Virus record (IMG/VR): IMGVR_UViG_3300025289_000058
Span: 1-40,031 of that record
Length of the DNA: 40,031 nucleotides
Strand: one strand, 5' to 3'
Source of the DNA: a virus
Shown here: positions 2,482-38,422 of the stretch, in pieces
How the letters are laid out: every line of letters starts with the position of its first letter
How positions within the stretch are numbered: position 1 is the first letter of the stretch
Program-made: the position numbers and the translations under genes
Notes under the pieces: generated by a model
Seen by the model: only the letters and a program-made list of their open reading frames with translations
Databases searched by the model: none
Told to the model about the DNA's origin: nothing

Positions 2482-2512
2482 CAAATCTATGTGATTTTTA
2501 TTTAAAAGTCAA
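2482..2512 (-). promoter_or_regulatory. Bacteroidota-type promoter before the epimerase gene
   Basis: Read on the minus strand: TTG (2510-2512), 20 nt spacer, TAGATTTG (2482-2489). This fits the Bacteroidota primary-sigma consensus TTTG/TTG-N19-21-TAnnTTTG. The -33 element lies inside the last codons of the GIY-YIG gene. The start codon follows 4 nt after the -7 box, so the leader would be very short. Confidence 0.6.
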
Positions 2513-3527
2513 CAGTCTGTAAATTATTCTTGAATTTTAAAAATGTATTATTTAATATTTTATGATTTTTAAATCTTAAAATTGTTTTTTTGTTATTATT
2601 ACATAATTTTTTTATGGCTCTCCTTGTTATCTTTAATAATTTCTCTGCCTCACTTAAACTTTTCCATTCTTTTAAAATATTTCCACATAAATCAACTTGA
2701 ATTATTGCTTTACAATCCTTTCTTATGTTTTTTGTCTTTTGAAATGTGATGTCTTTTTCATTTTTAAATTTGAATATAAATTCATTTTTATAAACCTTAT
2801 TATTTATGCAATAATTTTTAAGTGTAACGTATGTGCTTTTTAATTCTCTCACCAAATCACCCATAGACTTCCATTCTTTTATAAGAACTAACTTTATATC
2901 ATATTGGCATATAATTTTAGCTCTTTTTATATTTGAATTTATTAATATTTCATTGCGTTTACCAAAAAAATGATTTTTTTCACCACTTATAGATTGGCTA
3001 TTTTTAAAATTTCTTTCTTCTTGTCTTTTGTTTGCTTCTTCAGTGCCATATTTTTCTGTCCATAAACTATATAAACTTCTACCATACATAGAGTTGCTAT
3101 CACCAGCATATTTACCTTTTCTAATAAAAGAAGCATTTGCTTTTTGTTCACTTGTCAGCGTTGCCCCTAATGAACTTGAAGCAACTCTTCTAATATTATA
3201 TCCTAGTTTTTGAAATTTATTATTATCTTCATTTGCAAATAATAAAGCATTTAAATAAAGCTGTTCTATAAAAACTAATTCTTTTCTTAATTCTTCTTTG
3301 TTAAATATTTCTGCAAATTGTAATGTGTGAATTATTTCAAAATTAAAACTTTCTTTTTTATATTTATTCCAAGCATTTTGTAATTTTTTTGAATGATGTT
3401 CGTTTTTTAATAATTCCCTTTTATGTATAATGTATCTTCCTTCTAAATCATAAGAACTTCCGATATAAAGTTTTCCATTAATTTCATTCGTTATTTTATA
3501 AACTCCAGCTATAATTTTATTTTTCAT
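2502..3527 (-). CDS. Free-standing GIY-YIG homing endonuclease with NUMOD DNA-binding modules
   Basis: A 341-residue homing endonuclease. The GIY-YIG nuclease domain opens the protein (GVYKIT at 8-13, YIGSS at 21-25, Arg31). NUMOD3-like GKYAGDSNSMYGR and GEKNHFFGK segments follow, then two NUMOD1-like repeats, the second at about 275-315. I chose the start at 3527 because a strong Shine-Dalgarno (GGAGG at 3533-3537) precedes it; an upstream in-frame ATG at 3560 has none. Such enzymes cut a phage target site and spread their own gene. The start overlaps the RHH gene by 11 nt. A Shine-Dalgarno is otherwise rare in this window, which may hint at foreign origin. Confidence 0.9.
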   Translation of the reverse strand: MKNKIIAGVYKITNEINGKLYIGSSYDLEGRYIIHKRELLKNEHHSKKLQNAWNKYKKESFNFEIIHTLQFAEIFNKEELRKELVFIEQLYLNALLFANEDNNKFQKLGYNIRRVASSSLGATLTSEQKANASFIRKGKYAGDSNSMYGRSLYSLWTEKYGTEEANKRQEERNFKNSQSISGEKNHFFGKRNEILINSNIKRAKIICQYDIKLVLIKEWKSMGDLVRELKSTYVTLKNYCINNKVYKNEFIFKFKNEKDITFQKTKNIRKDCKAIIQVDLCGNILKEWKSLSEAEKLLKITRRAIKKLCNNNKKTILRFKNHKILNNTFLKFKNNLQTVDF

Positions 3528-3684
3528 TTTTACCTCCACTTTCATTAAAATAATTAACAAGAATCCAATTAATAAGTTTAGATTTATTTAAATTATATTC
3601 AGATAATTTTTTAAATTGATTATCATCAATGGTAATTGATAATTTTATTTTGGATTGGTCTATTGTTTTGTTATTTATACTCAT
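3517..3684 (-). CDS. Small ribbon-helix-helix (RHH) DNA-binding protein coupled to the GIY-YIG gene
   Basis: A 55-residue reading frame below usual length cut-offs. It has a basic N-terminus, a strand KIKLSITIDD, then two short helices around NLNKSKLINWILVNYF. This strand-helix-helix layout is that of MetJ/Arc-type RHH proteins, which bind operators as dimers. Its 3' end overlaps the GIY-YIG start by 11 nt in another frame, and its Ser-Gly-Gly codons contain that gene's Shine-Dalgarno. It resembles the 53-residue protein just upstream (SIT-D...NKSKLIN). Inference: a repressor or targeting partner for the endonuclease. Confidence 0.6.
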   Translation of the reverse strand: MSINNKTIDQSKIKLSITIDDNQFKKLSEYNLNKSKLINWILVNYFNESGGKNEK

Positions 3685-15798: not shown

Positions 15799-16518
15799 TT
15801 ACTTATACCTATCTAATATTTCTTTTATCACAGAATTTCTAACAACATCTTTATTCTCAAAATGAAAAATGCCTATTTTATCAATACCCTCTAACTTATT
15901 TAGTGCATCATATAGACCACTCTCTTTACTGTTCTTAAATTTGTCCGATTGTTCTAAGTCCCCGCTCATAATAAATTTTGAATGATGTCCTATTCTGGTA
16001 AGTATCGTTTTAACTTGTCGTGGCGTGGCATTCTGCATCTCTTCGAAAATTAAAATTGTTGAATCTATATTAATTCCTCGAACGAAGCCAAGAGGTAATA
16101 TTTCTAAAAACCCTTGTTCTTGCAGTTGTTTAACCTTTGCTTCACCTATTATTTTTCTAAATAAATATAGTGTTGAAAAAACATATGGCGCCAGCTTTTC
16201 CTCTAATGAGCCCTTCAAAAAGCCTATGGCTTCGTCTGCTTCAACAGCTGGAGTACATATTAAAATCTTATAAAATTCATTTTTATCTGACTTCAAAAGT
16301 TCAAGAGCTTTTACGACAGAAATTAAAGATTTTCCAACACCAGCAGGTCCGGAAGCTATTATAATTTCTTTCTGGTCTAAAAGTTCATAGAATATTTTTT
16401 GATTTTCTGTTTTTGGATTGAAGTGGATTTCTCCTATTAAAAGTTCCAATACTCTTTTGGTTTCGTTCTTGTAGTCAGAACTGCCATTTTTGTTTTTTTT
16501 GTTTTTATTAACTGCCAT
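15799..16518 (-). CDS. phoH: PhoH-family ATPase
   Basis: A 239-residue P-loop ATPase. Walker A is GPAGVGKS (57-64); the PhoH-typical ICTPAVEADEAIGFLKGSLEEK follows Walker A, and the Walker B region is STILIFEEMQNAT (153-165), then FIMSGDLEQSD. The usual Walker B Asp (LDE) is Glu here (FEE), a conservative change also worth checking. PhoH proteins are widespread in marine phages; some act as RNA helicase-like ATPases, but the phage role is unsettled. First gene of the 16518-13319 unit; an ATATTTACATAAA sequence precedes it (16527-16540). Confidence 0.85.
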   Translation of the reverse strand: MAVNKNKKNKNGSSDYKNETKRVLELLIGEIHFNPKTENQKIFYELLDQKEIIIASGPAGVGKSLISVVKALELLKSDKNEFYKILICTPAVEADEAIGFLKGSLEEKLAPYVFSTLYLFRKIIGEAKVKQLQEQGFLEILPLGFVRGINIDSTILIFEEMQNATPRQVKTILTRIGHHSKFIMSGDLEQSDKFKNSKESGLYDALNKLEGIDKIGIFHFENKDVVRNSVIKEILDRYK

Positions 16519-19418: not shown

Positions 19419-21812
19419 ATGATCGAAAACAAAAAAACAAAAATACTCTTCTTGCCCAGTGATAATGCAGGAGTCGGACACATTAGATCTATCTGGATAG
19501 CTCAAGAAATTAATGAAAAATTTTCTAATGATTTTTATGTTGAAATAAATCTAACTCCAGATTTTAATGACATAGAATATTTTAAAAAATTTGATATTAT
19601 TCATTTTCATAGACAACTTGGACCATATGAAAAAATGGATGAATTTTTTAAAACATTAAAAGATGCTGGTGTAATTCTTATTATGGATTTAGATGATTAT
19701 TGGGCACCGCCTCAAACACATCCGCTATATGGAATTGCTATAAAAGAAAAATTAGCAGAAAAGATAACTAAAACATTAAGAAAATCAGATTATGTCACCA
19801 CGACTACTGATATTTTTGCTAAACATATCATGCCTTATAATAAAAATGTATTAGTAATGCCAAATGGTGTAGATGTTTCACAGAAAATGTGGAAAGACGA
19901 AAACACAAAATTAAATGATAGAGTAAGGATATCGTGGATCGGTGGTAGCTCTCATTTTCATGACCTTATGCTACTTAAACCATCTATGAAATTATTACAT
20001 AATGATGCATCATTAAAAGATAAATATCAAATGATTATGTGTGGATACGATGTACGAGGCACAATAACAACAATTAATGAAGATGGAAGCCAGCACACAA
20101 GAAAAATCCTTCCACAAGAGACAATATGGAATAGATTTGAAGAAATATTCACAGATAATTACAATCCAAACATAGTTTCCGCAGAATATCAAAAATGGTT
20201 AAAAAAATGTAAAAATGAACCATATCCTAATGAAAACATTCTAAATGAAGCATATGTTAGAAGGTGGACTCTTCCATTAACTCAATATGGAAAACACTAT
20301 AATTATTGTGATGTTAATTTAGCTCCATTAACTGATAATACATTTAATGAGGTTAAATGTATTGTTGGAGATTCTTTAATATCAACAGTTAATGGAATTT
20401 TTAACATTAAAAATATTGTTGAAAATAAAATTAAATCTTCAATAGAAATTAATGGTATACAACATAAAATTGTAAATTATTTTGAATACAAAAATGTTCC
20501 TACGATAAAAATAAAAACATATAATGGATACGAAATTGAGGGAACGCCTCATCATAGATTTTTAATTAATGATAAATGGATTATGTTACAAGATTTAAAA
20601 GAAAATGACATAATACAATTAACATCACCTATTTTTTTACAAAAAAAATATCAAGAAATGTCTTATCCTATGTTATTAACAAAAAACATAACTGCTGATA
20701 AAATATTAAATAGTGATGAAAGTATGATTCCTAAAATAAAAGTAAATGAGACTTGGGGTAGATTTATTGGCTACATGTTAGGTGATGGTCATTATGGAGG
20801 GGCATCACTAATTAAAGTCGCATGTGATAAAAGACATACTGATGTTGTGGAAGATGTTGTTTCTATAATGAAATCAATGGGATTAAATCCCAAAATTTGT
20901 GAGAAAAAACCTGATAAAAGATGTCAAAACTCTTTACAAAAAGAAGGGTTTGGCGTTGAGGTCGTATGTACCTGTGTTACATTTTTGAAAATTGCAAAAA
21001 AATATAACCTATGTGGTTCTCACGGTAAAACATTTAGGGTACCAGATTTAATTTTTCAATCACCAAAATCAGTTATTAAAGAATTTATAAGAGGTTTATT
21101 TGAGGCGGATGGTACCGTTGAAAATACTGGGTGTTCTTTATGTAGTAAAGACCTAAAATTAATACAACAAATTCAGTATTTATTACTTGGATTTGGTATA
21201 ACTTCTCACATTTCGCATTCGTATAATAAAATTTATAGAAAATATTATTACAGATTAAATTTAAACAGAGATGCAAGTGATATATTTTTTAAAGAAATAA
21301 ACTTCATTTCTCACACAAAACGAAGTAAACTAAAATTAATAACAGAAAAAAATCATAGCAATGCATTTAAAAAACAAATATTTGAAGATAAAATAGTATC
21401 CATTGAACAATTCCACAATGATGTATATGACATGGAAATTAATGATGTGCACTCTTATAATGCTAATGGAATAATTAATCATAATTCAGAGCTTAAGGTC
21501 ATAGAATCTGGAATGAAAAAGAAAGTTCTTATAGCACAAGATTATAGTATTTATAAAGAGATTTTAACACACGGTGAAACTGGACTTTTAATTTCTAAAG
21601 CCGCCAACGAAAAAGGATGGTATGTTCAAATTAAAAAATTAATAGAAGATAAAGAATTAAGAGAAAGATTAGCAACAAATCTTCATGAATTTATTAAAGA
21701 CAAATATAGTTTAACAAATTTAACACAAGAAAGAATCAATATTTATCTTGATATGATTGAAAAAAAGAAATTAACCACAAGAGAAGAGCTTCTCGAGTTA
21801 GTTAAAAAATAA
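19419..21812 (+). CDS. GT4-type glycosyltransferase interrupted by an intein
   Basis: A 797-residue precursor; removing the intein (residues 314-689) leaves a 421-residue GT-B glycosyltransferase. The N-terminal domain starts KILFLPSDNAGVGHIRS, with MDLDDYW (89-95). The C-terminal domain has SWIGGSSH and LAPLTDNTFNEVK; after the intein the sequence continues SELKVIESGMKKKVLIA, then GLLIS. Joined, this gives FNEVK-SELKVIESG, the conserved donor-sugar motif of GT4-like enzymes, so splicing is required for activity. It may glycosylate a virion protein or host glycan. It sits among structural genes rather than in the minus-strand glycan operon. Confidence 0.85.
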   Translation: MIENKKTKILFLPSDNAGVGHIRSIWIAQEINEKFSNDFYVEINLTPDFNDIEYFKKFDIIHFHRQLGPYEKMDEFFKTLKDAGVILIMDLDDYWAPPQTHPLYGIAIKEKLAEKITKTLRKSDYVTTTTDIFAKHIMPYNKNVLVMPNGVDVSQKMWKDENTKLNDRVRISWIGGSSHFHDLMLLKPSMKLLHNDASLKDKYQMIMCGYDVRGTITTINEDGSQHTRKILPQETIWNRFEEIFTDNYNPNIVSAEYQKWLKKCKNEPYPNENILNEAYVRRWTLPLTQYGKHYNYCDVNLAPLTDNTFNEVKCIVGDSLISTVNGIFNIKNIVENKIKSSIEINGIQHKIVNYFEYKNVPTIKIKTYNGYEIEGTPHHRFLINDKWIMLQDLKENDIIQLTSPIFLQKKYQEMSYPMLLTKNITADKILNSDESMIPKIKVNETWGRFIGYMLGDGHYGGASLIKVACDKRHTDVVEDVVSIMKSMGLNPKICEKKPDKRCQNSLQKEGFGVEVVCTCVTFLKIAKKYNLCGSHGKTFRVPDLIFQSPKSVIKEFIRGLFEADGTVENTGCSLCSKDLKLIQQIQYLLLGFGITSHISHSYNKIYRKYYYRLNLNRDASDIFFKEINFISHTKRSKLKLITEKNHSNAFKKQIFEDKIVSIEQFHNDVYDMEINDVHSYNANGIINHNSELKVIESGMKKKVLIAQDYSIYKEILTHGETGLLISKAANEKGWYVQIKKLIEDKELRERLATNLHEFIKDKYSLTNLTQERINIYLDMIEKKKLTTREELLELVKK
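20358..21485 (+). mobile_element. LAGLIDADG intein in the glycosyltransferase gene
   Basis: A 376-residue in-frame intein. Cys1 (codon 20358-20360) opens CIVGDSLISTVNGIFN; block B is GTPHHRFL (Thr-x-x-His); two LAGLIDADG-type motifs are FIGYMLGDGHYGG and FIRGLFEADGTV; block F is VYDMEINDVHSYNANG; the end is GIINHN with Ser as the first downstream residue. All class 1 splicing residues are present, so it should be active. Confidence 0.9.
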
Positions 21813-26521: not shown

Positions 26522-26829
26522 TTTTCTCTTATTGCTTTAATATGCCTTTTTACATCATCAGAATACCATTCTTCTACAGATGGATTAATTGAAATTATTT
26601 CATCTGGCATAACCCAAAAATATGTATAATAATTTCCATCAAAATTGCAAACATTAATCATTCCAGTTTTTTCACAAATGCCGACACCATAAAGTCGTTC
26701 ACTTGTCATTATAGTGTTGTCTCCAATAATTTTATCTTTTTTTAAAACAAAACAAGATACGTCTACAGATACCATGTCAGTGTCCCAGTTGATGTTAGTT
26801 TGGAATAATATTTTATCAACATTATGCAT
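26461..26829 (-). CDS. Hypothetical protein
   Basis: A 122-residue protein with beta-rich residues (KILFQTNINWDTDMVSVDVS, LYGVGICEKTGMINVCNFDG, YFWVMPDEI) and a Lys-rich C-terminal helix. It overlaps the sigma-factor gene end by 8 nt. It is not recognised; the conserved-looking Trp/Tyr pattern supports a real gene. Confidence 0.45.
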   Translation of the reverse strand: MHNVDKILFQTNINWDTDMVSVDVSCFVLKKDKIIGDNTIMTSERLYGVGICEKTGMINVCNFDGNYYTYFWVMPDEIISINPSVEEWYSDDVKRHIKAIREKWIIEKNTKKELKQKKNKQK

Positions 26830-27691
26830 TAAGATGTTGTCTTAATATAGAACTATTGTTGCGACATTTTAATAATCTTATTGCACTGTCTTTTATTTGA
26901 CGAACCCTTTCTCTTGTGAGCTCAAATTCTTTTCCAATTTCTTCTAACGTCATTGCTTTATGTCCTAACATACCAAAATACATACATATTATTGATCTTT
27001 GTCTCGGTGTAAGTTTTTCTAAAACTTTTACAAAATCAGATTGCATTGATTCCATATTTAACTCATTATCTGGACTTAGACTATTTTTATCAGCAGTACA
27101 ATCAAGCAATGTTAAAGAACTATCATCATCTCCCATTGGAGAATCAAGTGATACGGTACGACCCATAATTAACTTTAAGTCTCCGACATTAACTTCAATA
27201 CCTTCCAGAGCTTCTTCCAATTCTTCGTTTGTTGGCTCTCTTTCGAGCTGTTGTTCAAGTTTAGAAGCTGTTTTATTTATTTTAAAAAGGGAAGAAGTCT
27301 GATTGGTTGGAATCCGTATCATTCTGGATTGCTCCGCAAGTGACTGTAATATTGATTGACGAATCCACCAAACTGCATATGAAATGAATTTAAATCCGCG
27401 ATTATTGTCGAATTTTCTTGCTGCTTTTATTAAGCCAACATTTCCATCATTTATAATATCTTCAAGAGGGAGCCCTCTGTTTTGATACTGTTTAGCTACA
27501 GTTATTACAAATCGAAGATTGCTTTTAACGAGCTTATCTAATGCAACTTCATCTCCGGAAGAGATTTTATTAGCAAGTTCAATTTCTTCTTCATTTGTTA
27601 AAAGTGGTATTTTATTAACTTCATTAAAATACTTTGTTATAGATTCACTTTCTCTATTAGTTATCCTCTTACTTATTTTCAGTTGTCTCAT
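26822..27691 (-). CDS. Phage RpoD-like sigma factor 1 (Bacteroidota type)
   Basis: A 289-residue sigma-70 factor that begins MRQLKISKRITNRES, nearly the same as host Bacteroidota RpoD, and is about its length (about 287). Regions 2.1-2.4 include LRFVITVAKQYQNRGLPLED and FKFISYAVWWIRQSILQ; region 3 has EQSRMIRIPTN; region 4.2 keeps LTRERVRQIKDSAIRLLK (around 257-274). It should pair with host RNA polymerase and recognise host-like promoters. It is likely self-controlled or early, as a TTG-N21-TACATTTG promoter precedes it. Confidence 0.9.
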   Translation of the reverse strand: MRQLKISKRITNRESESITKYFNEVNKIPLLTNEEEIELANKISSGDEVALDKLVKSNLRFVITVAKQYQNRGLPLEDIINDGNVGLIKAARKFDNNRGFKFISYAVWWIRQSILQSLAEQSRMIRIPTNQTSSLFKINKTASKLEQQLEREPTNEELEEALEGIEVNVGDLKLIMGRTVSLDSPMGDDDSSLTLLDCTADKNSLSPDNELNMESMQSDFVKVLEKLTPRQRSIICMYFGMLGHKAMTLEEIGKEFELTRERVRQIKDSAIRLLKCRNNSSILRQHLNA

Positions 27692-27778: not shown

Positions 27779-28654
27779 TTAATTTAAATAGTTTTTAAGT
27801 AGATTAACCTTTTTTTGAGTTCTCATTTGTCTTAATGCTTTTCTAATTATAACGCGAATTCCTTCTGAAGAATAATTAATTTCTAACGCAATTTCACTCA
27901 AAGACATTTCTTTGCTTCCATTTAATCCAAAATGCTTTTCTAAAACAAATCTTTCAGTATTATTTAATGTAGATATACTCCTTTGCATGTCAAATCTTAA
28001 AGATTCATCAATTGCTAAAAAACTATCTGGAGAATTTTTTTCTCCATCAGATGATCTTAAAATTTCTAATAATGATTCAGAATCTTCATCATTTGATAGT
28101 GGAGCATCATAAGATTGTATTCTTCCCATAGAAAACAACAATTCTTTTATTTCTTTTTCAGAAAGCTCCATTTCTTCCATTATTTCTTCATCACTGGGCT
28201 GGCGATTTAATTTTTGTTCAAGTTTTGAGTGTGCTGTTAAAAAACTTTTTTGAAGTCCTATTTTATTTAACGGAACTCTAATTAACCGGCCATGATTTGA
28301 AATAGCTTCCAAAACAGATTGACGAATCCACCAAACTGCAAAAGATATAAATTTAAAGCCTCTGGTTTCGTCAAATTTTCTTGCGGCTTTAATTAGACCT
28401 AAATTGCCGTCATTAATAAGATCAATTAAGGGAACACCACGATTTTGATATTGTTTTGATACAGATACAACAAAACGTAAATTGGAATTTACAAGCTCAT
28501 CAAGAGCTTTTTCACTCCCTTTCTTAATCATAACAGCAAGCTCTATCTCTCTTTCTTTGGTAATTAACTCATATTTAGATATTTCAGCCAAGTATCTATC
28601 AACTGCTTTTGTGCTTCTTTCTGTAATTGAGTGGGTAATTTTTAGTTGTCTCAT
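27779..28654 (-). CDS. Phage RpoD-like sigma factor 2, region 4.2 diverged
   Basis: A 291-residue paralogue of sigma 1, starting MRQLKITHSITERST. Region 2 is strongly kept (LRFVVSVSKQYQNRGVPLID and FKFISFAVWWIRQSVLE). In region 3 EQSR is NHGR. In region 4.2 the host helix RERVRQIKEKAIR has become SSEGIRVIIRKALR (262-275), losing the residues that usually contact the -35 DNA. It should therefore still bind core polymerase and melt a -10 element while reading a different or no -35 element. A weak promoter (TTG-N18-TTCGTTTG, 28683-28711) precedes it. Confidence 0.9.
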   Translation of the reverse strand: MRQLKITHSITERSTKAVDRYLAEISKYELITKEREIELAVMIKKGSEKALDELVNSNLRFVVSVSKQYQNRGVPLIDLINDGNLGLIKAARKFDETRGFKFISFAVWWIRQSVLEAISNHGRLIRVPLNKIGLQKSFLTAHSKLEQKLNRQPSDEEIMEEMELSEKEIKELLFSMGRIQSYDAPLSNDEDSESLLEILRSSDGEKNSPDSFLAIDESLRFDMQRSISTLNNTERFVLEKHFGLNGSKEMSLSEIALEINYSSEGIRVIIRKALRQMRTQKKVNLLKNYLN

Positions 28655-30944: not shown

Positions 30945-33900
30945 TTAATCAATTATTAAATTTTTATCATCGTCTTTTTTATTTATTCCATCATTAAGAC
31001 TTTTTAGATGTTTTTCAATATTTTCCATCATTGTCTTAGTTCTGAAATTTACTGCAGCATTATTTTTTTGTAAGCTGTTTTTTGGTTTTTTGTTTTCTGA
31101 AAGTGGTTCTTCGGTTCCTAAATCTTCTGCTCCAGATTCATCACCTGTTTCTCCTTCTGCACCGGCATCTAAACCACCTGCACCTGCATCCATTCCTCCA
31201 GCACCAGCATCTAAACCACCACCTAATCCTCCACCCATATCCATACCTCCACCAAGTCCACCGCCTCCACTACTCATTCCTCCACCACCAGCATCAGCTC
31301 CCGCATCAGCACCTTCTGCTCCGGCAACTTGTCCAGGAACAAATCCAGGTTTTCTAAACTTTCTATCAAGCTCATTAAATATCCCGGTTTCAATATATTC
31401 ATCTGCAGCACCTTCGATTTCAGCAAACATTTTACGTTCAATTTTCTTTTGTCTAAGAATTTGTTTAATTTCAGATTCAGAAAATCCCATAATATATTGC
31501 ATTGCCCAAGTATAAGAAACTGGAGAAGTTGGTTCGTTTGTAAATAATTCTTTAAATACTTCAAGCCTCGATTTCATTGTTTCGAGCTTTAGTAACTCTT
31601 GTTGAGTAGAAGGATTTGTTAATGTTAATTCAAAATTATTTATATCATCTTCAAAACCCAAGAAATACAAGTGTATATTTGCAATTCTTCTTAATTCTAT
31701 AACTAAAAATTGTTGAAGTCTGTTTATTGTTCTTGAAAATCTTAAATCCGCTTGAGATAAAGCTGAACCTCCCGGAATTGTTTCTGCATAATTTAAATAT
31801 GGTTTTGGAACTTTAAGAGCTGCAAATAATTTGTTCTGGAGGTATTCTATATCTTGGATATCCCCGAGATTGGAATTCGAAGTAAAGACGCCACTTGTAA
31901 GAGCAAAATTATGAAAATTATGATATAATTCATTTCCATCAATTGTTATTGTTCCTGTATCTTGTTTTTCTTCAAGCCATTCTATAGATATGATTTTGTG
32001 ATTAAAAAATTCTACTTTACTTTTAAAATCTCTCCAATTAGAATACCCAAAATGTTTCATCATTTTATCAAGATTATTATGGGTAAAACCATTTTTCATC
32101 TTTTTTAGTTGTTTATTTTCCTCATTTAACAAATTAAATTCAATCATAAATAAAGAACATTCTGAATTAATATTTTTTAATATTTCTTCTGCTGATAAAC
32201 CTTCCTTAAATTTACCTACAACAAACTGTAGCATGGTGTTAGAATACTTTATTGTTTGTTTTTCAATGACTGCATTTCTAAATGAATAATCCTTCCATAA
32301 CTCTGATGAAATTTTGCTTTGCTTAATTTTATATTCTGGAGTATTTTTTACAATTTTTAAAGTCGCACTTGTTTTTTCATAAAATGCTTTTTTATAATCT
32401 TCGTCTTTTAATAATTCTTGTAATTTATCAGAACCTTTTTGTGCATTATTTGCACTAATTTTTGCCCTTATTGATTTATCGTCAATACTTAAAGAATTGA
32501 AATATTTATTAATCCCATCAGAAATAGATTGATTGTGTTTAATTTCTTGTTCTTCAGTTCTGTTTAAATAATATTCTTCGCGAGCTATTTTTAATTTTTT
32601 TAGAACTTCATTTCTAAAATTTTCATTATTATTGTATTTATTTAACCAAGCTTCTACTCCTATTTTTGACCATTCTTTACTCATATTTTGATGAAATTCA
32701 TAATGGTCTTTATTATTCATCCAAAATAAATTTTCAGGAGAATTATTAAATCTATCAAAATTATAATGGTGAATTGTTTTTTTATCGCAATCAGAATATT
32801 TTTCATTAAAAACCATACTTCTTTCTTGGTCTGTTTCTTTAAAATAATTAGCTACCATCCTATGAGAAAAAATCCAATCATTTTTTAAATGGTCATATAT
32901 CATTTCATAATCATTTCTCTTTTTTCTTATATCATGAGAAGCTGGTGTGAATTTTTTATTAAAAGACCACAAAGACTCTCCTATTAATAAATCTTTTGCT
33001 TCTTTTTTGCCATTAAATTTAGTTGGAAATTTATGGTCAGGTGTTACTGTAATTGTCTCTCCGTTATCTAAAGTTATTTTTACAACTTGTGTATTTTTTC
33101 TTGTAACTCCCGCCCATGTTATGAACCCCGGAACAATTTCTCCTGTATTTGGATTTATAGAATAAGACCATAAATTTTTATTTCCATTGTCCCATTCCCT
33201 TATTATTTCAATCAATTCCAAACTTCTACCATCAAGAAGCTCTATTTTAGTATCTAAAGCGAGGCATGCACCCGGCAAAGTCTCTATACGAGAACTTTTA
33301 TCGCCGCGAATAGGGAGCCAGTAATCTTCTTCAAATGTGTTTTTCACAAAAACTCCACTGTTAGTGCGGTTTCCAGAGGTATCAAAAGAATACAATGCAA
33401 AATTATGTCTATCATGTTGACCATCATTTCCAACAACAGTCATACAATAAACATCATCATCTTCAAATATTGTTTCTGTTCTTAAAACTTTATGATTTTT
33501 ATATTCATATTGTCCTTTTTCGTTTTGAATTAAATTGTTTTTATTCCATTCTATTCTTAAATTTCTATAATTTTCTTTTTTTAATTCCAACAATAAAGGA
33601 TTATGTTTTTGTAAAAATTCTGTATAATTATCTATACCATTTTCACGTAAAATCCTTCTTAAATTTCCTTTACTATTAAAAAAAGTATCTACATTTCTTT
33701 TTGAATATTTATTTAATTCTTTTATTAAAAAATAAACCCCTGTATTTTTTAGATTATAAATAAAATCTTCTGCATTTACAAAAGTTTCATATTTTTTAAT
33801 TTCTTCTACAATTAAATCAAAACAATTTTCATCAACCTTAATAGTCATAGAACTTTTTAATTCTTCTCTACTTTCTTCATTTTCCCAACGAGCAGTTAAA

Positions 33901-35462
33901 CTTTTACTTCTTATCTCATCATGTTCTTTATGTAAATCAGAAGAATTATACCAAGCCATTGCCGAAACTGAATTTCTTTCAATATTTTGTTTTATTAATT
34001 TTTCTACAAAATCAGGATTTTGCCATTTGACTTTATTTAACTCACCATGCATTTTTTTATGTTCCTCAAAATCTACCCATTTTAAATTGCTAAAAATATT
34101 ATTATATCGATTAAAGTCCCTATGGTGTAATGTGTTGTGTTTTTCATTTGTTTTTTTAATTTCTTTGCCAATTAATCTATGAACATATTCGTATTTTCCA
34201 GAATTTGGATTATAAACTCTTTTGTAAGTTATGTTTTTATTTTTATTTCCTCCAAGTGTTTTAAAATCTTCATAATATGGCATTAAAGCATCTCCATCAC
34301 ATAATTCGCTTGCCATTTTTTCAGAGCCGTCACGGAGCACAAAAGGGTGTTCTGGTGCAGTCAAAACCCAAGTATTATCATCCAACCAAACTTTTGTTAA
34401 TTTATTTGCAGTGTAATTTTTCCCACACCAAATAACTTTTCCACCAACAACTTGATGCGTTTTGTCTTGAATTGAATACACAAAATTTTCTTTTCCTTCT
34501 TCAAATTCTTTTGCCAATTCTTCTATTGTTATTGTTCTTCCATCCAATAATGGAATAGGCGTATTTTTCCAAACCGGCATCGGAGCATATTTCAAATTCA
34601 CATTACCAGTTGATTGTTCAACCATAGGAGTTTTTTTAACAGAAGCCTTTGCTTTCTCCATGTATTGAGGAACATCTGCGGGGTCTATATTCCCTACCTC
34701 AATATAATAAACTCTTCTTTCTGGAGCTCTAATTGCTCTATAAACAAGCATAGCATCTTCTGCTAATTGTAATTGTCTCCAAAGTTTTCTTGCTGGTTCC
34801 AAAATTGATCTTCCATAAGGAAGTCTGTTGCTATCTGTTAATATTCTAAAATGAGCTACTTGCCATTCTTCAAAAAATAAATTATTATTATCCCACTTAA
34901 ATTTACTTGTTCCACTTTCTTCGTCTTTATTTTCTATTCTATGAACTTCACCAACTGGCAACATAATAACATCAAAAATTCCATTTTCTTGGTCAACTTC
35001 CAATTTAACAAAAGCATCTCCAAATTTTATTAATTCTCTTGTCCAAAATCCAAGGTTATAATTTATATTTAACACATTGTAGAATAGGTCTTTTAAAGTA
35101 TTTTTAACTCTTGAATTATCGCTATAAATTTCAAGTATGTTTCCTTTTTCTGATTTCGTAACGCATTCATCTGAAAGGATATCGAGTGCTGCTGACACTT
35201 CCGGAGAATTATCCATTGCTCTATAATCTTGATAGGCAGTAAATCTATCAGCTTCATAATACATAGACCTTGTATAAAGGTCTTCATACATTTTTTTAGA
35301 TTGTATATTTAAAAAATCTTGCTGTTTCTGTTGTTTTGAAGCAAACGGATTTGCTACCGGTGTATTTGTTAAAATACTTTTGTCTGTTTCTTTATTATCT
35401 CTTCCGCCTCTTTTTAAAGCTTTAAAAATTCCAGAAAATACACTTTCATCTTGTTCTGCCAT
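30945..35462 (-). CDS. gp20-type portal protein precursor with two inteins
   Basis: A 1505-residue precursor. Removing inteins at residues 296-708 and 733-1196 leaves 628 residues. The exteins show the T4 gp20 core: ALDILSDECVTKSEKGNILE, NLGFWTRELIKFGDAFVKLE and PYGRSILEPARKLWRQLQLA; then TFEEDYWLPIRGDKSSRIET and LPGA joined to SNLGDIQDIEYLQNKLF and ALKVPKPYLNY. These are hallmarks of the portal ring that seats at the packaging vertex. The C-terminus carries an extra Gly/Ala/Asp low-complexity region, making it about 100 residues longer than T4 gp20 (524). It follows TerL as in T4 and has its own host-type promoter. Confidence 0.9.
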   Translation of the reverse strand: MAEQDESVFSGIFKALKRGGRDNKETDKSILTNTPVANPFASKQQKQQDFLNIQSKKMYEDLYTRSMYYEADRFTAYQDYRAMDNSPEVSAALDILSDECVTKSEKGNILEIYSDNSRVKNTLKDLFYNVLNINYNLGFWTRELIKFGDAFVKLEVDQENGIFDVIMLPVGEVHRIENKDEESGTSKFKWDNNNLFFEEWQVAHFRILTDSNRLPYGRSILEPARKLWRQLQLAEDAMLVYRAIRAPERRVYYIEVGNIDPADVPQYMEKAKASVKKTPMVEQSTGNVNLKYAPMPVWKNTPIPLLDGRTITIEELAKEFEEGKENFVYSIQDKTHQVVGGKVIWCGKNYTANKLTKVWLDDNTWVLTAPEHPFVLRDGSEKMASELCDGDALMPYYEDFKTLGGNKNKNITYKRVYNPNSGKYEYVHRLIGKEIKKTNEKHNTLHHRDFNRYNNIFSNLKWVDFEEHKKMHGELNKVKWQNPDFVEKLIKQNIERNSVSAMAWYNSSDLHKEHDEIRSKSLTARWENEESREELKSSMTIKVDENCFDLIVEEIKKYETFVNAEDFIYNLKNTGVYFLIKELNKYSKRNVDTFFNSKGNLRRILRENGIDNYTEFLQKHNPLLLELKKENYRNLRIEWNKNNLIQNEKGQYEYKNHKVLRTETIFEDDDVYCMTVVGNDGQHDRHNFALYSFDTSGNRTNSGVFVKNTFEEDYWLPIRGDKSSRIETLPGACLALDTKIELLDGRSLELIEIIREWDNGNKNLWSYSINPNTGEIVPGFITWAGVTRKNTQVVKITLDNGETITVTPDHKFPTKFNGKKEAKDLLIGESLWSFNKKFTPASHDIRKKRNDYEMIYDHLKNDWIFSHRMVANYFKETDQERSMVFNEKYSDCDKKTIHHYNFDRFNNSPENLFWMNNKDHYEFHQNMSKEWSKIGVEAWLNKYNNNENFRNEVLKKLKIAREEYYLNRTEEQEIKHNQSISDGINKYFNSLSIDDKSIRAKISANNAQKGSDKLQELLKDEDYKKAFYEKTSATLKIVKNTPEYKIKQSKISSELWKDYSFRNAVIEKQTIKYSNTMLQFVVGKFKEGLSAEEILKNINSECSLFMIEFNLLNEENKQLKKMKNGFTHNNLDKMMKHFGYSNWRDFKSKVEFFNHKIISIEWLEEKQDTGTITIDGNELYHNFHNFALTSGVFTSNSNLGDIQDIEYLQNKLFAALKVPKPYLNYAETIPGGSALSQADLRFSRTINRLQQFLVIELRRIANIHLYFLGFEDDINNFELTLTNPSTQQELLKLETMKSRLEVFKELFTNEPTSPVSYTWAMQYIMGFSESEIKQILRQKKIERKMFAEIEGAADEYIETGIFNELDRKFRKPGFVPGQVAGAEGADAGADAGGGGMSSGGGGLGGGMDMGGGLGGGLDAGAGGMDAGAGGLDAGAEGETGDESGAEDLGTEEPLSENKKPKNSLQKNNAAVNFRTKTMMENIEKHLKSLNDGINKKDDDKNLIID
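31120..31335 (-). repeat. Gly/Ala/Asp-rich low-complexity repeat in portal C-terminus
   Basis: The portal tail codes for about 70 residues of Gly, Ala, Asp and Met in units such as GGGLGGGMD and DAGAGGMDAGAGGLDAGA. DNA repeats with a GGT/GCA codon pattern result, giving a local GC rise. Such repeats can change in length by slippage. Confidence 0.6.
31875..33266 (-). mobile_element. Portal intein 2 (HNH-type)
   Basis: A 464-residue intein. Cys1 starts CLALDTKIELLDGRS; block B is ITVTPDHKF (Thr-x-x-His); an HNH nuclease core lies in TIHHYNFDRFNNSPENLFWM; it ends HNFALTSGVFTSN with Ser as +1. The penultimate residue is Ser rather than His. Its insertion, between LPGA and SNLGDIQD, is in a conserved portal motif. 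Confidence 0.85.
33339..34577 (-). mobile_element. Portal intein 1 (HNH-type, class 3-like)
   Basis: A 413-residue intein homologous to intein 2 but starting with Pro (PVWKNTPIPLLDGRT), without Cys1. Block B reads LTAPEHPF, Ala replacing the usual Thr; block F has Cys in DDVYCMTV; the end is GVFVKN with Thr as +1. Lack of Cys1, block F Cys and Thr+1 point to class 3 splicing. The HNH core is TLHHRDFNRYNNIFSNLKWV. Confidence 0.75.
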
Positions 35463-35515: not shown

Positions 35516-38422
35516 TTAACCTTTTGATATTGGTCCATATAACCAACTTAAATCTGAGTCAGGAGTTTGAATGTTCCTTTGACCATCCTCTTTTTGTGTG
35601 TTTGTTGGTATTCCTCTGCTATTTGATTGAAAACTTATTGAATCTAACATTGCTTTAAAAAATTCTTTACTTTTAAATACATTATCAAATTCCGTGTCTC
35701 TCATAAATAAAGCTATAGCAAAAGCAAAAATAAGGTCATCGTGATATCCATCAGCGTGCTCAGGCTTATCACCTTTGTTTATAAATGTTCTAAATTCGCT
35801 AAGTAATCTTTTTGAATTTATCTTTACCTGAGTTTCTCTCATGTATTTTGCAAGACAACTCATAAGTAATGGCCTTGTTTTCGTTGTTGTTTGAAATCCT
35901 GGTATCTCACTATCTTGGTCAACATAGTCAACACCACCGTGACGAACATAAATTTTCTTTATTGATTTGGAATGATGTATTTTTTCTGTTGGATATTTTA
36001 AGACGTTTTTAAGAGCCAGAGTTGTTGCCAAACCGTGATTATTACATTCAGCTGCAACAAAAGCCATATTATAATCTGTGGCTACTTTATAAATCAATTC
36101 AGCAAAAATGTCTGGCGGAATTTTGCCTTGATATTCTGCAACTTGATTAAGTGTATCAGCATCAATAACTTCAACTGTTGAAAAATCCTCGCCATCTCCC
36201 CTTGAGATATCACAATTATGAGTAGTAATATTTTTACATAAAAAAGTATGATTTTCCGTTTCAAAATTGTAAACATTTCCTTTGTATAGTATTTTATTTA
36301 CATCTTTTATTTTGAAATATATATTTTCTAAATCTTTACTAAAAAAACAGTCCTTAATTATTCTATTGTTTTTAAGTATAAATTCATGAGAATACTTTAA
36401 TTTATCAGCTAATTTAACACTATCAAAATGACACAAATTTAATTGGTATGTCTTTTGAGTATTACACTCTCTTATTTTTCCATCTCTTTTAAAATATGCT
36501 TTCGATTCATTTCTTAATAATTGTAAACTAGATATTAATCCAATTGAAAATAAAATATCTTGTATTCCCTCTAATAACTCCAATGAAATGCTAACAAATG
36601 ATATTCTTGAGTCACCTCTAAGCCCTTCTTTGAACCAACATCCATCACCTTCTAAATAACCTTTTATTAATTCTAATTTATAGTTTTCAGGTAAAAATTT
36701 AACCCATTCAGGTAATATTTTATTTTTTGCTCCTTTTCCAAAATTTTCATTTATAAATTCAAAAATCTGTTTAGATGTAAATTGTGTGCTTATTGAATTT
36801 TCTATTTCTTTAATTGTTGTGCATACACTTTTATTATATTTACTAAATATATTTTTTATTTTTTTAACAAAATATTGTTCTGTTTTATTATTATGTGAAG
36901 TACATATATTGTAAGAATTTTTGTTTTTTATTGTCCAACCTTCTGCCAGCCACATTCCAATAAACCACCAGAATTCCTCATCTAATAATGGATTTTTTAT
37001 AATAAAATCTTTTCTCGTTGAATTTTCATATTTATTCCATTTTTCTTTTATTTCAGAAGATTCCAGTATATTGTTTTTATAAATATTTGGATAAATTAAC
37101 CAATCTCCAATTTTAATATCTTTGGCTTCTAAAAATTCTAATGGAACATCCCAATACCTCTCATTAAATCTATATATTTCATGATTTAGTTTATAGTTTC
37201 TTTTCAATTTTACTTTGTTTGATGATAAGATTGGATGATTTGCTGTGAATTTTGTTTTTCTATAAACATTAGAAGGTTTTATTTCATAAACACAATCTTC
37301 TATATCGCTTGTAATTTGTATGTTTTTAATATTTACATATTCTCCATTTTTATCAACTAATAAATCATTAAAATCAATGTCTTCTATATTTTTTAATCCA
37401 CTATTTGTTAAAACTTTTTCTCCTGTTGGTAAACACCCTATTATATAATTCCTTTTAGGTTGTGGTTTTTCCCAAACATAAAATTTTGTTTCTCTTGAAA
37501 CAAATCGTTCTGAAGGTTCTTTATAATCATAATAACATACCGGTTTAATATCAGCACAATGACTATCATATTTATCTATAATCCAGCTTTCAATAACAAC
37601 TGCAGCAGAACCTTCAAATGATAAATCTAACTCTTGTGCAATTTTCACCTTATCCCATTTTAAGAGCTCACACTGTTTTTCATACCAAGGACTCCACCAG
37701 AATTTTTTTCCATGTTCATCTGTTCTTTGTTCTAAATCTTTAGCATAATATGGGTGACGATTCCAATGTACTTCTGTTCCAACAAAAGCATTTTTATCAG
37801 TTTTTTGTTTTTTTATTGTTTCCGTCCATGTAGCATGATATAATCCTGAACTTCCGTTTGGCGTTGAAACCATTATACACTTAGCACTTTCAGCAGATAA
37901 AGCTAAACCAGCTGCCATCCATATTTCTTCTGCATTATCAATAAATGCTGTTTCATCCAAAATTAGCATAGTTAAAGTTTCTCCTCTACCGGCGTTACCG
38001 CCTGATGCTACAGCTTTACACCAGCTTCCATTAGAAAATATAATTTGTTGAGTGTTGTTTGTTGGAACTACATCTGGCCTTAAAAATGCCGGAAGATAAT
38101 CCAAAAATTGTTTTACTGAACCCAAGAATCTTCTTGCTCCAGCACCATCATTAGCAACAATAAGTATTCTTTCATTTTCATTAAAAAGCATTTTCCAACA
38201 AACATATCCTGATGTTATGACAGAAATTCCGGTCTGCCGCGATTTTAAGATAATATTATTTTTGTTTGACACATAATTTTCAAGAACTTCTTTTTGAATA
38301 TCGTAAAGAGTTAATTTATCAATAGTGCTTTTAGTAATATCAAATATATACCCATAGTTATTTAAAAAATAAATGGGATTTTTTGCACATTTAATAAATT
38401 CAATTGTTTCTTCTTGTGTCAT
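35516..38422 (-). CDS. Large terminase subunit (TerL, gp17-like) with intein
   Basis: A 968-residue precursor; without the intein (residues 330-736) it is 561 residues, normal for TerL. Walker A is KSRQTGIS (60-67), Walker B is LTMLILDE (150-157) and the coupling Ser-Thr-Pro is VSTPNGSSG. The nuclease domain begins at the splice junction: YIIG joined to CDISRGDGEDFST, with catalytic Asp directly after the +1 Cys. Later DGYHDDLIFAFA supplies further acidic residues. The enzyme packs DNA into proheads with the portal coded next. A CTATTTATAAAA motif precedes it by 4 nt. Confidence 0.95.
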   Translation of the reverse strand: MTQEETIEFIKCAKNPIYFLNNYGYIFDITKSTIDKLTLYDIQKEVLENYVSNKNNIILKSRQTGISVITSGYVCWKMLFNENERILIVANDGAGARRFLGSVKQFLDYLPAFLRPDVVPTNNTQQIIFSNGSWCKAVASGGNAGRGETLTMLILDETAFIDNAEEIWMAAGLALSAESAKCIMVSTPNGSSGLYHATWTETIKKQKTDKNAFVGTEVHWNRHPYYAKDLEQRTDEHGKKFWWSPWYEKQCELLKWDKVKIAQELDLSFEGSAAVVIESWIIDKYDSHCADIKPVCYYDYKEPSERFVSRETKFYVWEKPQPKRNYIIGCLPTGEKVLTNSGLKNIEDIDFNDLLVDKNGEYVNIKNIQITSDIEDCVYEIKPSNVYRKTKFTANHPILSSNKVKLKRNYKLNHEIYRFNERYWDVPLEFLEAKDIKIGDWLIYPNIYKNNILESSEIKEKWNKYENSTRKDFIIKNPLLDEEFWWFIGMWLAEGWTIKNKNSYNICTSHNNKTEQYFVKKIKNIFSKYNKSVCTTIKEIENSISTQFTSKQIFEFINENFGKGAKNKILPEWVKFLPENYKLELIKGYLEGDGCWFKEGLRGDSRISFVSISLELLEGIQDILFSIGLISSLQLLRNESKAYFKRDGKIRECNTQKTYQLNLCHFDSVKLADKLKYSHEFILKNNRIIKDCFFSKDLENIYFKIKDVNKILYKGNVYNFETENHTFLCKNITTHNCDISRGDGEDFSTVEVIDADTLNQVAEYQGKIPPDIFAELIYKVATDYNMAFVAAECNNHGLATTLALKNVLKYPTEKIHHSKSIKKIYVRHGGVDYVDQDSEIPGFQTTTKTRPLLMSCLAKYMRETQVKINSKRLLSEFRTFINKGDKPEHADGYHDDLIFAFAIALFMRDTEFDNVFKSKEFFKAMLDSISFQSNSRGIPTNTQKEDGQRNIQTPDSDLSWLYGPISKG
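36215..37435 (-). mobile_element. LAGLIDADG intein in TerL
   Basis: A 407-residue intein inserted at the nuclease active site. Cys1 opens CLPTGEKVLTNSGLKN; block B is FTANHPIL (Thr-x-x-His); LAGLIDADG-type motifs are FIGMWLAEGW and LIKGYLEGDGCW; the end is NITTHN with Cys as +1. All class 1 residues are present. Splicing is needed before TerL can cut DNA. Confidence 0.9.

Follow-up and report, generated by a model that had tools for sequence, protein, structure and literature searches.

Class 3 inteins are operationally defined by the absence of an N-terminal cysteine together with a cysteine at position 4 of block F (F:4, also C2:4; PMC7891396), and their signature, WCT, stands for a Trp at B:12, the Cys at F:4 and a Thr at G:5, a position two residues ahead of the terminal Asn (PMC5222942, PMC7891396, PMC3196547). 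The literature treats them as monophyletic and as the product of a single event (PMC3196547, PMC4031507). Beyer et al., whose conversion of a class 1 into a class 3 intein failed, argued a direct class 1 origin to be unlikely (PMC7664689). Two splicing chemistries within one protein are known from M. smegmatis DnaB, which carries the class 3 intein DnaBi1 and the class 1 intein DnaBi2 (PMC6195587), and closely neighbouring inteins are known from haloarchaeal MCM (PMC10643990).

Here we describe a T4-type portal gene with two inteins in a 40,031-nucleotide stretch of viral DNA (IMG/VR record IMGVR_UViG_3300025289_000058, positions 1 to 40,031), referred to as the window. The portal pair resembles the M. 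smegmatis DnaB inteins in joining two predicted chemistries in one protein and differs from them in insertion sites and lineages; it resembles the MCM inteins by closeness. Given these precedents, we claim novelty neither for the combination nor for the proximity. Judged from the sequences, what appears to be new is a clade of portal inteins with Pro1 and Cys F:4 that lacks the W and T of WCT, and the kinship of this clade with class 1 inteins; a search of the open-licence literature returned no description of such a clade.

Two inteins in a T4-type portal gene

The portal gene (30945..35462, minus strand) is a single 1505-aa ORF with two inserts, intein 1 (33339..34577, minus strand; aa 296-708, 413 aa) and intein 2 (31875..33266, minus strand; aa 733-1196, 464 aa). 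The exteins total 628 aa and match Pfam Portal_T4 (6e-61) and the PHROG portal family (1e-50), and a PDB search of the portal returned gp20. Between the inteins lies a middle extein of 24 aa, TFEEDYWLPIRGDKSSRIETLPGA (33267..33338, minus strand), a stretch that is uninterrupted, upstream of intein 2, in the homologues L045, L013 and L056. TIGR01445 matches both inteins above its cut-off (40.5 bits for intein 2), and Pfam Intein_splicing passes its cut-off on intein 1 and on the whole ORF, with intein 2 alone reaching 33.0 versus a cut-off of 35.8. AF2 models had a pLDDT of 90 for intein 1 and 83 for intein 2, and the former showed a Hint fold matching the Ssp DnaB mini-intein (Z 20.9) and NrdJ-1 (Z 20.8). 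Splicing-domain profile, Hint fold, C-terminal Asn and +1 nucleophile (Asn413/Thr+1 and Asn464/Ser+1, respectively) thus characterize both as inteins. Each also contains an HNH region, at 34008..34229 (minus strand) in intein 1 (PHROG 21964 HNH, 4e-7; HNH homing endonuclease 1u3e, E 0.005) and at 32646..32789 (minus strand) in intein 2 (PHROG 21964, 5.5e-6; PHROG 7545, 9.7e-6; Pfam HNH_3 sub-threshold at 0.0002), and motif and family match together assign a predicted HNH homing endonuclease domain to either intein.

The N-splice junction of intein 1, YAPM|PVWKN (Pro1 codon at 34575..34577, minus strand), was placed by means of empty-site homologues, fold alignment and Cys1 inteins at the same junction. 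At this site, L045, a homologue free of the intein, reads KYDPENVTEDYWIPIRGDKSSKIETLPGA, and KYAPMTFEEDYWLPIRGDKSSRIETLPGA is the product predicted for the window. The two are identical in length, which agrees only with an intein 1 that runs from Pro to Asn and confirms Pro1 as the true first residue. Indeed, in an AlphaFold model of intein 1 with six-residue flanks, residues 7..419 (P1..N413) aligned to residue 1 through the end of solved inteins, and a Cys1 intein at the same junction in L009 reads NPM|CLTMD. The terminal Asn413 is encoded at 33339..33341 (minus strand) and the +1 Thr at 33336-33338. The intein boundaries are shown by sequence, and the joined exteins are predicted to read YAPM-TFEEDYWLPIR at the intein 1 site and ETLPGA-SNLGDIQDIEYLQNK at the intein 2 site. 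Intein 1 recurs at 100% identity on three other IMG/VR contigs, and relatives at 35-60% identity share the arrangement seen in the window, so that the two-intein locus is no assembly accident. The best explanation of these data is that a 628-aa portal would need both HNH inteins to be spliced out. An earlier note on this DNA had proposed two HNH inteins with 24 extein residues between them, a product of 628 residues and an intein 1 starting with Pro; coordinates, TIGR01445 and the PHROG HNH families agree on the first, the summed exteins give the second, and the L045 empty site together with the model alignment to solved inteins bears out the third.

Residues and predicted chemistry of the portal inteins

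Intein 2 has Cys1, a block B reading TPDH (Thr B:7, His B:10), Thr F:4, a penultimate Ser, Asn464 and Ser+1. With Cys1, the B:10 His, the C-terminal Asn and the +1 nucleophile all present, its residues identify it as an ordinary class 1 intein, which would splice by the class 1 route starting with an N-S acyl shift at Cys1. Intein 1 has Pro1, a Cys at F:4 (VYCMTV; intein residue 378, 33444..33446, minus strand), a penultimate Lys, Asn413 and Thr+1. Its block B reads A-P-E-H, with Ala at B:7 and, at B:10, a His (His77; 34347..34349, minus strand) that is invariant across the Pro1, Cys1 and canonical class 3 sets. At the three WCT positions it has Phe B:12, Cys F:4 and Val G:5. Intein 1 hence falls under the operational definition of class 3, having no nucleophile at position 1 and a Cys at F:4, and departs from the WCT signature by Phe for Trp and Val for Thr.

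A proline at position 1 is unable to form a thioester, from which we infer Cys F:4 to be the attacking residue of an active intein 1. In the proposed route, Cys378 would attack the Met-Pro junction in place of an N-terminal nucleophile, resulting in a branched thioester at block F; Thr+1 would take over the N-extein, and after cyclisation of Asn413 an acyl shift would restore the peptide bond. The earlier note had read the block F Cys of intein 1, Cys1 with Thr-x-x-His in intein 2 and the lack of a penultimate His in both (Lys and Ser, respectively), and these readings hold, as does its expectation that the predicted initiating nucleophiles differ (Cys F:4 versus Cys1). Its likening of intein 1 to class 3 stands as to the missing Cys1, the Cys F:4 and the Ser or Thr+1 typical of that class, but not as to the T of WCT, for which it had taken Thr+1: the Thr of class 3 belongs to the intein itself, at G:5 (PMC5222942, PMC7891396), where intein 1 has Val.

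IMG/VR scans and one scan of bacterial genomes yielded 28 distinct Pro1 splicing domains, 27 of which were included in trees. All Pro1 inteins of the clade (at least 27) reside in T4-type phage portal genes, at three sites: 22 at the intein 1 site, four at a second site (RN|..|CKYGD, with Cys at +1) and one at a site adjoining that of intein 2. At pairwise identities of 38-88%, Cys F:4 is present in 28 of 28 and Ala B:7 in 26. None of the 28 has Trp at B:12 (F, V, I, L, M or Y instead), Thr at G:5 (V, L or C instead) or a penultimate His. The portal Cys1 kin have Thr B:7 throughout (26/26) and T, D, C or S at F:4, and all of ~20 related inteins in Patescibacteria genomes start with Cys1. Several Pro1 inteins lack an endonuclease and measure 157-173 aa (L027, L036, L039 and L046, with Ser or Cys at +1); such mini-inteins would be starting points for engineering. 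In L022, two Pro1 inteins lie 27 residues apart, so that a need for differing chemistry at adjacent sites in tandem splicing is rejected.

Conservation across this clade bears on whether intein 1 splices at all. As a decayed or cleaving-only element it would leave the portal to work as associated fragments, and decay has been documented for one class 3 intein (PMC3196547); Pro1, Ala B:7 and the absent penultimate His do deviate from the class 1 consensus. However, at least 27 diverged copies, all in open frames and in an essential gene, have kept the terminal Asn, the His residues at B:10 and in block F and the Cys at F:4, and a penultimate residue other than His is common in phage inteins, one of which was shown to splice (PMC5050341), which makes decay highly improbable. 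The +1 residues (Ser in 14, Cys in 10 and Thr in three of 27) speak to a further alternative, namely a class 2-type intein, likewise without an N-terminal nucleophile. Cys+1 in 10 of the 27 would suit this class, but 17 have Ser or Thr, and Cys F:4 is invariant across the Pro1 clade; the KlbA orthologues that make up the known class 2 have Asp at F:4 and Cys at +1 (PMC4031507), and intein 1 differs from the KlbA type, which starts with Ala1, in its portal host, Pro1, Thr+1 and Cys F:4. We consider a class 2 assignment quite unlikely.

A second cysteine, Cys51 (WCGKNY; 34425..34427, minus strand), is likewise invariant across the Pro1 clade and is replaced by Ala in all portal Cys1 kin. Its invariance is partly due to ascertainment, as one search pattern (V[IK]WCGKN) included it, yet not to ascertainment alone, since four Pro1 members read WCD and fall outside that pattern. 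By analogy, Cys51 could serve a structural role or pair with Cys F:4 in redox chemistry. We rejected it as the counterpart of Cys48 of Msm DnaBi1, a redox cysteine (PMC6195587), because the alignment puts the two at different positions; the likeness is a lead only.

Kinship with canonical class 3 and portal class 1 inteins

Phages were the source of the canonical class 3 sequences; the set was built outward from mycobacteriophage Big3, whose TerL intein has P1, W, C and T, the mycobacteriophage TerL inteins being reached via Bxb1 TerL. Canonical members (mycobacteriophage TerL and DnaB, Msm and Mch DnaB, Bvi IcmO) share with intein 1 the lack of an N-terminal nucleophile, Cys F:4, a conserved B:10 His, frequent Ser or Thr at +1 and the lack of a conserved Thr at B:7; Pro1 is common to intein 1 and the Big3 intein. 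Unlike intein 1, they have Trp B:12, Thr G:5, a penultimate His and mostly a LAGLIDADG endonuclease (82.5%, PMC7891396), and their class 1 kin occupy Walker-A sites. The split class 3 intein AceL NrdHF is similar to intein 1 in its block F branch Cys, in having no WCT Trp (Met instead) and in being without the usual His at C1:6 and C2:13, but it keeps Thr G:5, is split and starts with Ala1 (structural match to the intein 1 model at Z 17.3, 9% identity). The portal class 1 HNH inteins (L009, L035, L041, L059, L060, L113 and intein 2) occupy the same gene as intein 1, mostly at the same site, and have homologous splicing and HNH domains; they differ in Cys1, Thr B:7 and an F:4 residue that is Cys, Asp, Thr or Ser.

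Profile scores of the Pro1 splicing domains had a median of 131 bits against portal Cys1 inteins, 93 against other class 1 inteins and 7 against canonical class 3. The corresponding hhalign scores were 310, 216 and 31, and canonical class 3 scored 97 versus other class 1 inteins. The B:10 His is residue 77-79 in Pro1 inteins, 76-78 in portal Cys1 inteins and 63-65 in canonical class 3. The alignment comprised ~130 columns, and long branches meet in it. In a tree from which the diagnostic columns had been removed, the Pro1 inteins formed a clade (support 100/99) that joined the portal Cys1 inteins (95/97), and canonical class 3 grouped with Walker-A-site inteins of the Cys1 LAGLIDADG type (L103, L175 and L177; 100/98). 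The Pro1 clade and canonical class 3 stood apart in every tree built. Endonuclease regions, a line of evidence separate from the splicing domains, matched between Pro1 and portal Cys1 inteins in 405 of 460 comparisons (best 8e-42) and between class 3 and Walker-A Cys1 inteins in 24 of 24 (best 2e-25), with none matching across the two groups. Splicing-domain tree and endonuclease kinship therefore give each nucleophile-less group Cys1 relatives of its own. Inteins can swap endonuclease domains, however, and such exchange could mimic the evidence that does not come from trees.

Initial trees, built without the Walker-A Cys1 inteins, could not separate one origin from two. When Pro1 and canonical class 3 inteins were forced into one clade, the AU test gave p values of 0.28, 0.52 and 0.39 on the earlier sets and of 0.093 (lnL 19.3 lower) and 0.151 (lnL 19.1 lower) after the Walker-A Cys1 inteins had been added, its power being limited by the ~130 columns and long branches. 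Canonical class 3 chains were missing, up to E 10, from the hits of a PDB sequence search with the splicing profile, an absence that carries no evidential weight since structural comparison of the intein 1 model listed such chains at Z 15-17.

These data have to be weighed against descent of intein 1 from the single canonical class 3 lineage, as a divergent branch that gained an HNH endonuclease while its Trp B:12 and Thr G:5 were lost. Both core changes, loss of Cys1 and Cys at F:4, are shared, Big3 supplies a canonical Pro1, WCT can vary as in AceL NrdHF (PMC7891396), and the AU test is not significant. Still, the median of 7 bits as opposed to 131, the differing B:10 position, the tree and the separate endonuclease kinship all point the other way, and we regard such a branch as unlikely. 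One origin for the Pro1 clade and canonical class 3 is thus disfavoured by the sequence comparisons, albeit with no formal rejection by the AU test.

Forms at the intein 1 site and inteins elsewhere

The intein 1 site is occupied in other phages by Cys1 inteins with Asp at F:4 (L059, L060), with Cys at F:4 (L009, L035/L050, L041, L113 and, with Thr+1, L068) or with Ala or Ser at F:4 (L117, L052), alongside the 22 Pro1/F4-Cys members. For 23 of 27 Pro1 inteins, the nearest Cys1 kin by identity were the same-site inteins L035, L050, L059 and L060; in the tree, the Cys1/F4-Cys forms do not come out as the immediate sister group of Pro1. In the order of steps that we infer, a class 1 portal HNH intein would first have exchanged Asp for Cys at F:4 and would then have lost Cys1 and Thr B:7. 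The first step would be easy, given that Cys F:4 is known from class 1 inteins of polyphyletic origin (cited in PMC3196547). We consider it likely that class-3-type chemistry appeared in this class 1-derived portal HNH lineage, probably via Cys1/F4-Cys forms and apart from the WCT inteins. Likewise, we lean towards a second class-3-type origin in which Cys F:4 was gained first and Cys1 lost later, with the same-site alleles as steps and the Trp and Thr of WCT dispensable. This runs against the published single-origin view. The portal lineage with its apparent same-site intermediates would represent a natural, testable route from class 1 to class 3-type splicing, and it supplies residues that were absent from the grafting experiment of Beyer et al. 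(Ala B:7, Cys51 and a block F of YCM..VG..DRHNF).

The earlier note had taken the two portal inteins for sisters that diverged from each other within this gene. Their splicing domains are 36% identical, which makes them cousins instead, and each has its closest relatives at the same site in other phages; for this reason we also reject a local duplication by which intein 1 gave rise to intein 2. What the note did not see is that intein 1 is, by its sequence relationships, a member of a Pro1/F4-Cys clade most closely related to class 1 inteins, and the main interest of the locus shifts to a probable second origin of inteins with a block F nucleophile.

Inteins also accumulate elsewhere. Up to four occur in T4-type portals of metagenomic phages (L057, L066, L069, L021, L027, L022, L104 and L117), and such portals look like intein hot spots. 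The L057 portal ORF, from position 1641 on a contig of a Wolfebacteria MAG, contains a Ser1, a Cys1 and two Pro1 inteins, in this order. In Aphanizomenon phage CL131, the dCTP deaminase gene (L105, 943-2610) has a Cys1/F4-Cys HNH-type intein related to the portal family; the gene table of L105 names only the dCTP deaminase and leaves the intein unlisted. Within the window, the TerL ORF (35516-38422, minus strand) contains a Cys1 intein of LAGLIDADG type ending in HN|C (36215-37435, minus strand), so that the adjacent terminase and portal genes hold three inteins in all. A further Cys1 LAGLIDADG intein (Pfam Intein_splicing 2e-19, LAGLIDADG_3 7e-19) interrupts a 797-aa glycosyltransferase ORF (19419-21812, plus strand). 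Other genes in the window include two adjacent sigma-70 family factors downstream of the portal (26822-27691 and 27779-28654, minus strand), both with regions 1.2, 2, 3 and 4, a PhoH-like protein (15799-16518, minus strand) and a GIY-YIG domain ORF (2502-3560, minus strand), which is possibly a mobile endonuclease.
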